From contig VGSZ01000008.1 in the NCBI GenBank assembly GCA_016874845.1, positions 1 through 54,768 of the forward strand: DNA of 54,768 nucleotides. Reading direction: 5' to 3'. The DNA is from Deltaproteobacteria bacterium. GTDB lineage: Bacteria; Myxococcota; UBA727; VGSZ01. Positions 7,300 to 44,516 of this stretch are shown here, piece by piece. The first letter of the stretch is position 1. The number at the start of each line of letters is the position of its first letter. Both the position numbers and the translations under genes were made by a program. The notes beneath the pieces were generated by a model. It had not been told where the DNA came from and ran no database searches. It was given only the letters and a program-made list of their open reading frames with translations.

Positions 7300-7575
7300 T
7301 CCTGCCCGGGCTGCCCCCCGCTGCCGGCGTCGTCTTTGTCGTCGTCGCTTCGTTCTGCTCGCGTTGTCGCGTGTCGCTCTTTCGCCTTCGGCGGGAGTCT
7401 GCCCCGGGCTGCGCCCCGCTGCCGGCGTCGTCTTTGTCGTCGTCGTTGGTCTGCGGGCTTGTTCGCCTGGCTGTCTTCGCCTTCGGCGGGAGTCAGGGGG
7501 CGTCTGGCCACGCCCCCTGACAACCCCGGGCCTCTTCGTGAGCTCCACACCGGCGAGACGACCCGGGCTCCGCAG
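7300..7575 (+). repeat. Dispersed element, partial copy C
   Basis: It contains two left-end-like segments (GCCCGGGCTGC...CCGCTGCCGGCG near 7303 and 7397), TTCGCCTTCGGCGGGAGTC, and the family hairpin at 7493-7520 (10-bp arms TCAGGGGGCG/CGCCCCCTGA, loop TCTGGCCA) followed by CAACCCCGGGCCTC. No matching inverted right end is seen, so this copy is incomplete or rearranged. Confidence 0.7.
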
Positions 7576-7620
7576 ACGATCATCGCCGCCACTCGATTTT
7601 TTCTGGCTGCGGCGCGCGGG

Positions 7621-7716
7621 TCGTTCGCCTTCGGGCGAGGACACGGCTGGGCGGTCGTTCGCCTTCGGGCGAGGACGCGGCTGGGCGGTCGTTCGCCTTC
7701 TGGTGACGACACGGCG
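7621..7716 (+). repeat. 34-bp tandem repeat, 2.8 copies
   Basis: Units start at 7621, 7655 and 7689 with TCGTTCGCCTTCGGGCGAGG. The unit resembles the GTCGTGTGCCTTCGGGCGATG hairpin inside the larger elements at 20.9 and 30.5 kb, so it is probably an amplified piece of that family. Confidence 0.7.
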
Positions 7717-8521: not shown

Positions 8522-8537
8522 AGGCACGGCAGTTGCC
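8522..8537 (+). promoter_or_regulatory. Sigma-54 promoter of flagellin 2
   Basis: AGGCACGGCAGTTGCC matches the -24/-12 consensus TGGCACG-N4-TTGCW at all core positions (GG at -24, GC at -12, correct spacing). Transcription would start near 8548. Confidence 0.8.
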
Positions 8538-19661: not shown

Positions 19662-19724
19662 GTCTTCTTCTTCTTCTTCTTCACCACTTTCGACGTCTTC
19701 GCGCTGCTCTTCACCGCTTTCCAC

Positions 19725-19790
19725 GTCGTCGCTGCCCGGGCAAGCAAGAAGCCGGAAGCGCGAAGACGAAGACGTCAGAAGCGCGAAAGA
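19725..19790 (-). repeat. Dispersed element, end fragment E
   Basis: GCCCGGGCAAGCAAGAAGCC followed by GGAAGCGCGAAGACGAAGACG is the inverted version of the DNA flanking element B on its left (30240-30300). It shows that this family also reached the flhB/flgF junction. Confidence 0.55.
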
Positions 19791-19850
19791 TGAGCGCGCG
19801 AGGGGCGGGGCAAAGCCGGAAGCACGAGAAGAAGAAGAAAGCGAAGGCGA

Positions 19851-19896: not shown

Positions 19897-20628
19897 ATGC
19901 CACGCCTGCACTACATCGCGATGTCTGGAGCCACGGCCCGCCTGCGCGAGCTCGACGAGCTCGCCGACGACCTCGCGAACCAGGCGACGCCGGGCTACCG
20001 CGCGGTGACCTACGCGTTCTCGACGGCCATCGACGAAGAGATCCTCGGCAACAAGCAGGCGGAGAAGGACGCGCCGATGCGGCAGGTGCTCCCGGTGGAG
20101 ACCTCGGTGGTCCGCCAGGACGGCCCCGCCGTGCGCACCGGTCGCCCTCTGGACGTGCGCCCCACCGAGGGCACGTGGCTCAGCGTGCAGCAGGCCGACG
20201 GCACCGTCACCTACACCCGCGACGGCCGCATGCAGGTCGGCGTCGACGGCTTCCTGCGCGTCGGGCACAACAAGGTGCTCGGCGTCAACGCCGAGCCCAT
20301 CGCTGTCGACCCGGGCACGGTGCCGTTCATCGACGAGCGCGGCCGCGTTTTTGCCGGCGAGCGCGAGAGCGGTCGCCTCGGCCTGTTCCAGCTGCCGGGT
20401 GAGCTGCAGCGCGTCGGCCCGGCGCAGGTCCTGCCGCGCAAGGGTCAGGCCGTGACCGTGGACGGCACCGTTACCGTCGGTGCCATCGACGGCAGCAACG
20501 CCAACGGCCTCGACTCGACCATCTCGATGATCTCGGCGCAGCGCTCGTACGAGCAGTCGCTGCAGGCGCTGCAGACCGTGCAGAAGCTCGATGACAAGGC
20601 CAACGAGATCGGGCGCCCGCGCGGCTGA
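19897..20628 (+). CDS. flgF: Flagellar proximal rod protein FlgF
   Basis: 243 residues. Rod subunit. It has the N-terminal rod motif LRELDELADDLANQATPGYR, a central TRDGRMQVGVDGFL segment, and the C-terminal rod/hook motif ISMISAQRSYEQSLQALQTV. It lacks the LEGSNV motif expected of FlgG, which supports FlgF. ATG 19897 is preceded by GGAGG. flgG normally follows within a few bases; here an 885-base spacer with a repeat element intervenes. Confidence 0.9.
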   Translation: MPRLHYIAMSGATARLRELDELADDLANQATPGYRAVTYAFSTAIDEEILGNKQAEKDAPMRQVLPVETSVVRQDGPAVRTGRPLDVRPTEGTWLSVQQADGTVTYTRDGRMQVGVDGFLRVGHNKVLGVNAEPIAVDPGTVPFIDERGRVFAGERESGRLGLFQLPGELQRVGPAQVLPRKGQAVTVDGTVTVGAIDGSNANGLDSTISMISAQRSYEQSLQALQTVQKLDDKANEIGRPRG

Positions 20629-20670
20629 GCTTCTTTTTCTTCTTCTCGCTTTCGACGTCGTCGCGCTTCT

Positions 20671-21442
20671 CTTCGTCGCGCTTCTGACCTCGTCGCTGCT
20701 CGGGCTGCGCCCCGCTGCCGGCGCTTTCTTTGTCGTCGTCGTTGTTCTGCTCGCGTTGTCGCGTGTCGACGTTTCGCCTTCGGCGGGAGTCAGGGGGCGT
20801 CTGGCCACGCCCCCTGACAACCCCGGGCCTCCTTGGGGGTGCCGGCAGCGGCACACGACCCAAGCGCCGGACCGTCGTTGTCGTCGGCGCTTTCATCCGG
20901 GCCGGCGACAGCGGGTCGTGTGCCTTCGGGCGATGACACGACGAGGCGAACATTCTCGTCGTCGACGCGACTGCGCTTCGGCGCCGTGACGCCATGGCGC
21001 CCCGGCGCCGCTTCTCGTTGTCGAGCGGGAAGCGCGCAGAGCGAGGGATGGCGCCGCTTCTCGTCGCCGACAGCGATGCGCGCAGAACAAGGGATGGCGC
21101 CGCTTCTCGTCGTCGAGCGGGAAGCGCGCAGAGCGAGGGGGGGCTGGAGGGGTGTGGGGAACCGGGGGGGCGGCAGCCCCCCTTGTTCCCCACCAGCCGC
21201 CGCGGCGCCTGAGCGGCCGCCGGGGGGCCTGGGGGCCGGGCGGGACCGGCCCCCAGGTCGCGCCGAAGGCGAAAGGTGAAAGAGCGACAACGCGAGCAGC
21301 CCGACAACGGTGACAACGAAAGCGCAAGCAGCGGGGCGCAGACCGAGCAGCGACGAGCTCGACAACGACGACAACGATGACAACGAAAGCGCAAGCAGCG
21401 GGGCGCAGCCCGAGCAGTGACGCGGTCAGAAGCGCGACGAAG
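20671..21442 (+). mobile_element. Element A: MITE-like element with long terminal inverted repeats
   Basis: Left end 20671-20718 and right end 21395-21442 are reverse complements at 46 of 48 positions; the inner 23 bases (20696-20718 against 21395-21417, beginning CTGCTCGGGCTGCGCCCCGC) match perfectly. Similarity continues inward, both arms reaching CGCCTTCGGCG, with part of the right arm duplicated. Inside are a hairpin (20790-20817), a GTCGTGT/ACACGAC hairpin near 20915, a 46-bp repeat in three copies (21006-21143), and a GC-rich hairpin near 21225-21258. No transposase is encoded. Mobility is inferred from structure and copies, not shown; I did not find target-site duplications. Confidence 0.65.
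21006..21143 (+). repeat. 46-bp tandem repeat, three copies, inside element A
   Basis: Units begin at 21006, 21052 and 21098 with CGCCGCTTCTCG. The sister element B carries one such unit near 30607, so the copy number differs between otherwise similar elements. Confidence 0.75.
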
Positions 21443-21460
21443 AAAAAGAAGGCGACGGTC

Positions 21461-21476
21461 GGGCACGGTCCTTGGA
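21461..21476 (+). promoter_or_regulatory. Sigma-54-like promoter of flgG, GG at -12
   Basis: GGGCACGGTCCTTGGA keeps the -24 element and the TTG of -12 but has G in place of the usual C. The same variant stands before fliO (50581), which makes chance less likely. It lies 38 bases before the flgG start, just outside element A. Confidence 0.5.
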
Positions 21477-21513: not shown

Positions 21514-22302
21514 ATGATGCGCTCTCTCTACACCGCGGCCACCGGCATGATGGTCCAGGAACAGAAGATGAATGTGGTTGCGAACAACCTCGCCAACTCG
21601 TCGACGACGGGCTTCAAGCGGGCGCGGGCCGAGTTCAGCGAGCTGCTGCCCGACCGGCTGCAGGCTGCCGGCAGCGGCGTCGACACCGCCGGCAACCGCG
21701 CGCCGACGCCCATCGAGGTCGGCCTCGGCGCCCGCGTCGCCGCCGTCGCCCGCGACTTCGGTACCGGTGACCTGCTGAACACGCAGAACCCGCTCGACCT
21801 CGCCATCGAGGGCACGGGCTTTCTGCGCGTCACCCGCCCCAACGGCGACATCGGCTACACCCGCGCCGGCAACCTGCGCATCGACAGCGAAGGACGGCTG
21901 GTCACCGCCGCCGGCGACCCCCTCGACCCCGGCATCAGCATGCCGCCCGAGGCCACCGACCTGTCCATCAGCCGCGATGGCGTCGTCACCGCGCGCGTCG
22001 CCGGCCGCGACGAGGCCGTGCCCATCGGCAACCTTGAGCTGACCATCTTCCAGAACCCCGCCGGCCTCGAGTCCGTCGGCGGCAACCTGTACCGCAGCAC
22101 GACGGCGGCGGGCCTGCCGACGTCGGTGCGCCCCGGTGAGCGCGGCAGCGGCGAGCTCGCCCAGGGGTTCCTCGAGGGCAGCAACGTCAAGAGCGTCGAA
22201 GAGATGCTCGACCTCATCACGACGCAGCGCGCGTACGAGATGAACTCGAAGATCATCCAGACCGCCGACCAGATGCTGCAGAAGCTCAGCAACCTGAAGT
22301 GA
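21514..22302 (+). CDS. flgG: Flagellar distal rod protein FlgG
   Basis: 262 residues, standard for FlgG. It starts MMRSLYTAATGMMVQEQKMN with NVVANNLANSSTTGFKR, and ends with the FlgG-specific FLEGSNVKSVEEMLDLITTQ and RAYEMNSKIIQTADQML. ATG 21514 is chosen over an upstream start because the family begins there. It is the first gene of flgG-flgA-flgH-flgI-flgJ. Confidence 0.97.
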   Translation: MMRSLYTAATGMMVQEQKMNVVANNLANSSTTGFKRARAEFSELLPDRLQAAGSGVDTAGNRAPTPIEVGLGARVAAVARDFGTGDLLNTQNPLDLAIEGTGFLRVTRPNGDIGYTRAGNLRIDSEGRLVTAAGDPLDPGISMPPEATDLSISRDGVVTARVAGRDEAVPIGNLELTIFQNPAGLESVGGNLYRSTTAAGLPTSVRPGERGSGELAQGFLEGSNVKSVEEMLDLITTQRAYEMNSKIIQTADQMLQKLSNLK

Positions 22303-30237: not shown

Positions 30238-30294
30238 CCTCTCGTCTTCGTCTTCGTCTTCGTCTTCGTCTTCGCGCTTCCGGCTTCTTGCTTG

Positions 30295-30821
30295 CCCGGG
30301 CTGCGCCCCGCCGCCGGCGCTTTCTTTGTCGTGCTCGTTGTTCTGCTCGCGTTGTCGCGTGTCGACCTTTCGCCTTCGGCGGGAGCCAGGGGGCGTCTGG
30401 CCACGCCCCCTGACAACCCCGGGCCTCCTTCGGAGTGCCCACACCGGCACACGACCCAAGCGCCGGACCGTCGTTGTCGCCGACGCTGTCCTCCGGGCCG
30501 GCGACAGCGGGTCGTGTGCCTTCGGGCGATGACACGACGAGGCGAACATCCTCGTCGTCGACGCGACTGCGCTCCGCGCACGACGCGACGATGCGATGGC
30601 GCCATGGCGCGGCTGCTCGTCGTCGAGAGCGATGCGCGCAGAACGAGGGGGGCGAGAGGGGGTCGTGGGGGAGTAGGGGGGCGTCAGCCCCCTATCCTCC
30701 CCCGCCAGCCGCCGCGGCGCCTGAGCGGCCGCCGGGGGGCCTGGGGGCCGGGCGGGACCGGCCCCCAGGTTGCGCCGAAGGCGAATGGTGAAAGAGCGCC
30801 GGCAGCGGGGCGCAGCCCGAG
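30295..30821 (+). mobile_element. Element B: sister of element A
   Basis: The left end (30295-30321, CCCGGGCTGCGCCCCGCCGC...) and right end (30795-30821) are inverted repeats. The interior follows element A closely: family hairpin 30386-30413, GTCGTGT/ACACGAC hairpin near 30510, one copy of the 46-bp unit near 30607, and a long near-identical GC-rich block (30705-30770 against 21194-21258). The right arm lacks the duplication seen in A. Confidence 0.65.
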
Positions 30822-30936
30822 GAACGACGACGAGCGAAGGGCGCGCGAAGAGAGAAGCGAGAGCGCGAAGCGAGAGAGCGAGACAGCGAGACAGCGAAGA
30901 GAGAAGCGTGAGAGCGAGGAGAGAAGAGAGAGAAGG

Positions 30937-43854: not shown

Positions 43855-44516
43855 CGAAAGAGAAGAGCAACGCGCCATCGTCAGCGTCGCCGTCGTCGCC
43901 AGCGAGCACGTTCGCGTCGCCGCCCAGGGCCTTGAGCTCGTTCCGCTCGGCGCGGACCTCCGCGAGAGTCTCCCGCACCGCAGCTCGCTCCCCCTGCGCT
44001 GCCGCCGCGACGATAGACGTCGGCAGGGGCGACACGACGGGTGCCCTCTGCACGCGCGTGGCGACAGCGGGTCGTGTGCCTTCTGGCAAGGACCCGCGCC
44101 GCCTGCTGGAAGACTCCCGGCAGCGCGTCGTCGCGCTCGAGCGCGAGCTGAACGGGGGCGTGCGTGGCTTGTTGAAGCGCACCTTCTGCCGGTAGCGGTT
44201 GCTATCGCGCTCGTCCCCCACCGCGAACTGGCGTGCCGCGCTAGTCGCACGGCTCATTGTCGTCGTTGCTTCCACAGTCGCACCCTTTCCGGCGCTTGGG
44301 TCGTGTGCCGGTGCGGGCAGCGCGCAAGAGGCCCGGGTTGTCAGGGGCGTGGCCAGACGCCCCTGACTCGCGCCGAAGGCGAAAGATCGACACGCGGTGC
44401 CGCAAGCCGCACGAGAGAGCCGCCGCCGACGACGACGTCAGCAGCGGGGCGCAGCCCGAGCAGGCGCCACGCGCGCGAAGAGCCCACGCCGCCAGCGCAA
44501 CGGAAAAGAAGGAGCC
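43855..44516. other. Spacer after the activator gene, with element fragment D
   Basis: 662 bases. The first ~300 keep high third-position GC in more than one frame (for example minus-strand RETLAEVRAERNELKALGG and plus-strand RRLLEDSRQRVVALERELNG), so a decayed gene is possible, but no intact frame has a credible start. The rest is fragment D of the dispersed elements. Confidence 0.4.
44287..44463 (-). repeat. Dispersed element, fragment D (inverted)
   Basis: On the minus strand it runs CTGCTCGGGCTGCGCCCCGC (44463 leftward), then TTTCGCCTTCGGCG, the family hairpin (44341-44366, 9-bp arms), CAACCCGGGCCTC and CACACGACCCAAGCGCCGGA. The order matches the left half of elements A and B. A separate piece of the GTCGTGTGCCTTC hairpin lies at 44067-44095. 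Confidence 0.7.

Follow-up and report, generated by a model that had tools for sequence, protein, structure and literature searches.

The flgF–flgG region

The DNA examined here (the window) is a stretch of 54,768 nucleotides from a deltaproteobacterial genome (GenBank assembly GCA_016874845.1, contig VGSZ01000008.1). It represents contig C8 of the genome designated G000, a 5.6-Mb draft of 532 contigs with 95% completeness. In this window, the flagellar genes flgF and flgG are separated by an element that occupies positions 20630–21451 and is composed of two head-to-head copies of a modular unit of ~250 bases, A-B-C-D. Units of this kind are dispersed in the genome, and units of the same fold but other letters occur in a sister species. 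The following features were identified in the region:

19897–20628, + strand: flgF (FlgE/F/G C-terminal domain; Pfam)
20630–21451, no strand: whole element, from the flgF stop to the flgG promoter; two convergent structured units and a spacer (sequence, arm comparison)
20630–20642, + strand: left terminal 13-bp inverted repeat CTTCTTTTTCTTC (perfect match to the right end)
20671–20718, + strand: left 48-nt arm of the preliminary description
20698–20722, + strand: module A, GCTCGGGCTGCGCCCCGCTGCCGGC (found in most copies)
20775–20785, + strand: module B hairpin, CGCCTTCGGCG (copy comparison, helix statistics)
20789–20818, + strand: module C hairpin; 12-bp stem 20789–20800/20807–20818, 6-nt loop CTGGCC at 20801–20806
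20819–20829, + strand: C-rich linker AACCCC (20819–20824) and tail GGGCC (20825–20829), the latter predicted to pair with the module C loop (pseudoknot)
20850–20924, + strand: module D long hairpin; outer stem 20850–20861/20913–20924, inner stem, variable apical loop
21004–21144, + strand: 46-bp repeat in three tandem copies, central part of the element
21154–21193, + strand: central GC-rich hairpin
21207–21276, − strand: right unit in opposite orientation (covariance model, module C reading), with B′ 21261–21271, C′ stem 21228–21239/21246–21257, loop 21240–21245, linker′ 21222–21227 and tail′ 21217–21221; it carries a third loop/tail letter set, CCGCC/GGCGG
21302–21427, no strand: 59-nt direct duplication in the right arm, copies 21302–21360 and 21369–21427
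21395–21442, − strand: right 48-nt arm
21439–21451, − strand: right terminal 13-bp inverted repeat (perfect match to the left end)
21462–21475, + strand: sigma-54-like −24/−12 site GGCACGGTCCTTGG, located before flgG and just beyond the right end of the element
21514–22302, + strand: flgG (Pfam)

The Pfam assignments agree with the gene identities given in the preliminary description of this locus. The closest named match of FlgG originates from a deltaproteobacterial metagenome-assembled genome (47%). The gap between flgF and flgG, as judged from the ends of tblastn matches, is about 33–60 bases in four further genomes belonging to the order or phylum, which is in line with the view that these genes are normally adjacent. 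No flgG was found in two genomes of the same genus (G001 and G002, the latter from the sister species) or in G003, a member of the same family, all of which are more than 90% complete. Thus, the flagellum is patchy within the genus.

Exact matches to GGCACGNNNNTTGS occur in the window at 8523, 19852 (before flgF), 21462 (before flgG), 23660, and 50582, all of them + strand sites that precede + strand genes. If one mismatch is tolerated, the number of matches in the window is not above chance. At −12, the site at 21462 carries TTGG instead of TTGC. The earlier proposal that flgG possesses its own promoter outside the element is supported by this site but not proven.

Organization of the element

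The 48-base inverted ends described previously, 20671–20718 and 21395–21442, are complementary at 46 of 48 positions with a longest run of 23, whereas 60 Markov-shuffled versions of the spacer contained no 48-nt inverted match better than 35. The similarity, initially traced inwards for ~110 bases, amounts to 80% for 114-nt and 84% for 90-nt arms, and the duplication noticed in the right arm is a direct one, with its two copies 67 nt apart. With the perfect 13-bp pair at its extreme ends, the element is slightly longer than first stated. Several hairpins and the 46-bp tandem repeat (three copies) are located in its interior. The interior lacks a gene, as had been reported: only overlapping mechanical open reading frames (ORFs) were present, and none passed a gene caller based on GC content at third codon positions (GC3).

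The appearance of ‘terminal inverted repeats’ results from the presence of two units placed head to head. The 48-nt arms are the outer, least conserved part of the element, while its conserved part is made up of interior modules recurring genome-wide. A relative of the arms alone, pyrimidine-rich on the left, purine-rich on the right and without modules B-C-D, is located upstream of flgF (19667–19800).

A dispersed family of structured units

The search for further copies proposed in the preliminary description revealed many of them throughout the genome, but the part they share is internal and does not correspond to the 48-bp ends. With the spacer as query against its own genome, 87 BLAST matches were obtained, several of them inside the window (copy counts for G000 and G002, here and below, are those among the matches listed). 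Covariance model R1, built from nine units of G000 only, gave 61 matches in this genome at E ≤ 0.01, of which ~42 remained at E ≤ 1e-6; among the weaker matches, some represent the same D hairpin read on the opposite strand. The number of structured units in G000 is ~45. The spacer is therefore a family member, and its content is structured and non-coding.

Side-by-side comparison of the copies defined an oriented unit, which consists of a pyrimidine-rich lead with module A (CGGGCTGCGCCCCGCTG), the B hairpin, module C (hairpin, C-rich linker, and tail), and the long hairpin D. The multi-hairpin series spans ~160–250 bp. Single units make up the majority of the copies; the flgF–flgG copy, the copy at 30240–30900, and a few others additionally contain a unit in the opposite orientation. 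The outer ends are low-complexity tracts and vary between copies. Many copies have trinucleotide-like tracts on their flanks, and several are located at contig ends. Further copies in the window are:

7302–7653, + strand: copy between fliD and fliS, unit 7473–7636 (BLAST, covariance model, Pfam)
30240–30900, + strand: second full (paired) copy, units 30366–30527 (+) and 30719–30788 (−); 75% identical to the flgF–flgG element
44060–44463, − strand: copy with unit 44237–44386 (BLAST, covariance model)

The units are intergenic. According to crude gene calls, on which all orientation counts rest, they are found between 14 convergent versus 3 divergent gene pairs in G000, where the A side faces a gene end in 29 cases and a gene start in 16. 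Orientation to neighbouring genes in G002 displays no bias (16 same, 17 opposite). Many units start shortly after a same-strand stop codon, at a distance of 26–75 nt in G002 and ~110–190 nt in G000. A reading as terminators or 3′-untranslated regions (3′-UTRs) was rejected because the orientation is inconsistent.

The conserved pseudoknot fold

A more informative feature than the inverted ends, which escaped the preliminary description, is the covarying pseudoknot involving loop, tail, and linker. Namely, covariation indicates that module C forms a hairpin and that the hairpin loop pairs with a tail located just past the stem, that is, a predicted H-type pseudoknot. Helix statistics were obtained from an alignment of 50 distinct rows, which was fitted to a covariance model and leans towards structure. 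In this alignment, 93.9% of helix cells are paired, as compared to ~40% after sliding the partner registers, and changes on both sides (compensatory) occur at 23 of 34 pairs, versus 15.7 in shuffles.

The counts of loop/tail letters and of linker and stem lengths are independent of the fitted alignment. Three loop/tail sets were recognized among 34 module C copies of G000: GCGCC/GGCGC (17 copies), GGCC/GGGCC (12), and CCGCC/GGCGG (3); the pairing is broken in the remaining 2. A fourth letter set, AGGGCA/TGCCCT, is used in G002. The linker in G000 is 5 nt long with 11-bp stems (4 of 4) and 7 nt long with 13-bp stems (13 of 13), while 12-bp stems are accompanied by linkers of 6 nt (13 copies) or 7 nt (3 copies). 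The corresponding combinations in G002 are 10-bp stems with 5-nt linkers (8) and 11-bp stems with 6-nt linkers (13). Stem and linker lengths thus move one for one in both species: 11/5, 12/6, and 13/7 in G000; 10/5 and 11/6 in G002. Two C stems in this count had been read too short automatically owing to a mismatch close to their base and were corrected by hand.

A scan with the structure signature yielded 18 hits in G000 and 16 in G002 within unit-bearing stretches, none in 796 kb of other G002 sequence, and 0–2 in shuffles. Folding is better than in shuffles for either strand (z −4.9 and −4.1). Mirror and inverted repeats are combined within one short span. The apical region of module D in G002 has a near-constant length of 55–57 nt and variable letters between near-invariant stems.

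The family in the sister species and other genomes

Model R1 produced one weak match in G002 (E 0.0016, locus L169). This locus displays the same architecture in other letters: B is CGCCTCCGGCG, the C stem is TCCAAAGGGGCT, the loop includes AGGGCA, the tail is TGCCCT, and a second convergent unit is present. BLAST searches with L169 gave 83 matches in G002, whereas G000, G001, and G003 had none. About 40 units of the G002 sub-family were read, a few of them broken or unparsable. Both the loop–tail pairing and the one-for-one relation of lengths thus apply to a second sub-family as well, one that has no BLAST link to the first. The occurrence of the same knotted fold with different letters in two species indicates that the fold rather than the sequence has been kept by evolution. 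Many G002 units (L196, L198, L204–L206, L208, and others) carry a near-identical insertion of ~21 nt, ACCTGGTGGTGGCGAAGCGCT, in the C loop, with the pairing letters AGGGCA retained.

About 12 genes flanking units in G000 have an ortholog in 1.2 Mb of G002 sequence, and none of these orthologs has a unit on the same side. The two families therefore seem to have been amplified at different places. The joint model of both species, R2, gave 47 matches in G000 and 37 in G002 (E ≤ 0.5), and a tail of weak ones elsewhere. Those in the phylum members G003, G022, G030, G032, G034, and G035 look like chance (E 0.1–0.5) and were dismissed. A related locus in G005, a representative of another family of the order (L319, G005:C18:711151–712091), contains a C module with an 11-bp stem, the 6-nt loop CCGGCC, the tail GGCC, and inverted flanking modules; it appears to be single-copy in that genome. 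This locus lies ~10 kb from the flgG of that genome, which may or may not be a coincidence. When repeats were sought de novo, no such family was recovered from 400 kb of G003 or from 131 kb of G001, the G001 sample being too small to decide. The family spans two species and probably extends wider.

Dispersed repeats of bacteria are usually recognized by their letters and explained as simple palindromes. In the present case, the families of two congeneric species cannot be joined by BLAST, yet both have the knotted fold, in which loop, tail, linker length, and linker letters change together. The situation amounts to a natural experiment that may tell what is copied or selected, and it supplies a defined fold to be used in the search for the enzyme or binding protein.

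A possible third strand

The fit between linker and stem was examined for 36 distinct stem/linker types comprising 226 linker positions. In one fixed register, 189 of these positions agree with the stem purines in giving a permitted antiparallel triplet (G.GC, A.AT, T.AT), the code and register having been chosen after viewing the same copies. Other registers score 87–152, and permutation of equal-length linkers gives 158 ± 4.4, with none of 20000 permutations reaching 189; sub-family ancestry inflates such figures. A simple forward-strand triplex code (C.G/T.A) accounted for 148 positions, below the reverse-strand code, and was abandoned. The linker letters are suggestive of a triple helix with the stem. 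Also, A.C exceeds G.T among the non-standard cells on the A-to-D (forward) strand, which points weakly to the reverse strand as the folded one.

It is conceivable, although we hold it only tentatively, that these units constitute a class of nucleic-acid element that is new. It would consist of a pseudoknot with its linker placed in an in-register triple helix with the stem and would be present at ~40 loci per genome; its letters would be exchanged from species to species, and selection or fold-dependent copying would maintain the fold at each locus.

Nature of the element

We consider it probable that the flgF–flgG spacer is a copy of a new non-autonomous, dispersed intergenic element of the BOX/REPIN-like kind, defined by its pseudoknot fold. 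This reading builds on the family itself, its spread over two species, head-to-head pairing of units, covariation of stem, loop, and tail, and the one-for-one relation of stem and linker lengths. The recognized form would be a folded single strand, for which RNA and single-stranded DNA are both possible, and some factor presumably spreads or maintains the units. A host or element enzyme may recognize the fold and cause the element to multiply, as proposed for REPINs and BOX. One copy would have landed between flgF and flgG in an ancestor of the G000 species and may have split them into two transcription units, the second of which would start at the sigma-54-type promoter at 21462. A regularly adjacent gene pair can thus be split and, probably, re-promoted.

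Several observations weigh against a mobile element. Given that flgG is missing from the same-genus genomes, the empty sites looked for, seen as short flgF–flgG gaps, are shown at the order or phylum level only. A target duplication flanking 20630–21451 is not visible in the sequence of this copy, other copies not having been checked systematically. Copies are often 70–85% identical, i.e. old. Stems are conserved far above apical loops (96% versus 68% identity for D stems and apical region in G002; G000 is similar), suggestive of selection that still acts on the individual sites and not of decay following transposition. No Y1 transposase (RAYT, PF01797) was detected in G000 or G002, while the E. 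coli control was positive; mobilization of the RAYT/IS200 type was therefore rejected. Reverse transcriptases (RTs) were rejected as well, with one RT per genome, in differing contexts and neither near any unit. In all, no mobilizing enzyme was found in the carrier genomes, where the Y1 and RVT families were searched. The RT of G000 (L315, contig C82) follows an FGE-sulfatase-like ORF, an arrangement that we take to resemble that of a diversity-generating retroelement.

The conservation of stems over diverging apical loops would also be expected of a functional structured host RNA, i.e. a 3′-UTR stabilizer, attenuator, or small RNA selected per site, with the pseudoknot and its triple helix as the working core, similar to folds of the SAM-II/SAM-V type. 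Strong covariation, the pseudoknot kept with replaced letters in two species, the position of many units shortly after a same-strand stop codon, and the folding of both strands speak for such an RNA. We nevertheless regard it as rather unlikely, because orientation is near random in G002 and merely biased in G000, the A.C excess hints that the other strand folds, and the letters were replaced wholesale between the species.

An improbable explanation is a DNA-level chromosome site comparable to the protein-binding arrays of enterobacterial bacterial interspersed mosaic elements (BIMEs) and repetitive extragenic palindromes (REPs), in which cruciform or triplex-prone DNA binds a host protein. 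The intergenic location in both orientations, the frequency of convergent pairs, the 14 to 3 ratio of convergent to divergent gene pairs in G000, and the combination of mirror and inverted repeats in one short span fit this explanation; taken alone, it accounts neither for a loop–tail pseudoknot with matched lengths nor for the species-wide replacement of letters.

Still less probable is a classical miniature inverted-repeat transposable element (MITE), a non-autonomous derivative of a DDE-type insertion sequence (IS) with terminal inverted repeats and target duplications. The MITE-like nature suggested in the preliminary description stands as regards inverted ends and dispersal, and the lack of a gene, the high copy number, and empty sites in relatives would agree with it. 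It does not stand as regards the ends and the mode of insertion: most copies are single units without a second end, their low-complexity outer ends vary, the conserved part is internal and folded, no target duplication was seen, and no transposase partner was found. Finally, low-complexity GC-rich sequence or an assembly artefact that merely looks structured, to which the trinucleotide-like tracts and the copies at contig ends might point, has virtually no likelihood in view of the 46/48 match against a shuffle maximum of 35, the same architecture in an independently assembled sister genome, and a structure signature missing from other sequence and nearly so from shuffles.

Comparison with known repeats and folds

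The repeat family is previously undescribed. No Rfam covariance model matched the window or the copies from both species at the gathering score; the matches at E ≤ 1 were weak ones of the microRNA (miRNA) or long non-coding RNA (lncRNA) type, far below gathering scores. Plasmids gave no match to the family, and viral contigs, searched with one conserved D motif, contained no exact occurrence of it. Searches of the open-access literature did not reveal any earlier description of a pseudoknot-containing intergenic repeat.

BOX elements of Streptococcus pneumoniae are built of boxA-boxB-boxC modules and are thought to be non-autonomous parasites with slow movement (PMC3049150). The present element works like BOX in being modular, intergenic, multi-copy, and strongly folded, with no sequence relation claimed. 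Unlike BOX, it is built around a covarying H-type pseudoknot whose linker is matched in length, head-to-head pairs occur, and no IS with matching ends was found, the enzyme search having covered the Y1 and RVT families. With the REP/REPIN–RAYT systems (PMC3116915, PMC2817692) it shares the intergenic location, high copy number, palindromic units, the occurrence of singles and inverted pairs, and species-specific families, but its units are ~250 bp rather than ~20–40 bp in size and neither carrier genome encodes a Y1 transposase. Prokaryotic MITEs (reviewed in PMC10969869) are similarly dispersed and gene-free with inverted arms; in contrast to them, the present element shows no visible target duplication, is mostly one-armed, and has a conserved internal fold. 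Since it works like BOX and REPINs but has neither the RAYT nor the target duplication expected of a MITE, we file it as a new variant of interspersed structured repeats, outside any named family.

The reverse strand of module C has the same predicted topology as the riboswitch cores SAM-II, SAM-V, and guanidine-III (PMC6061858), a comparison of how they work only. Unlike those cores, it has no Rfam match, is present in dozens of copies, shows no link to a metabolic gene class, and its predicted triplets are of the antiparallel G.GC/T.AT type.

Additionally, a second dispersed repeat family, CCCTCACCC...CCCAATTCTGGG(A/C)GAGGG with an inverted partner, was noticed in the window from ~38832 on and at L129, L132, and L138.
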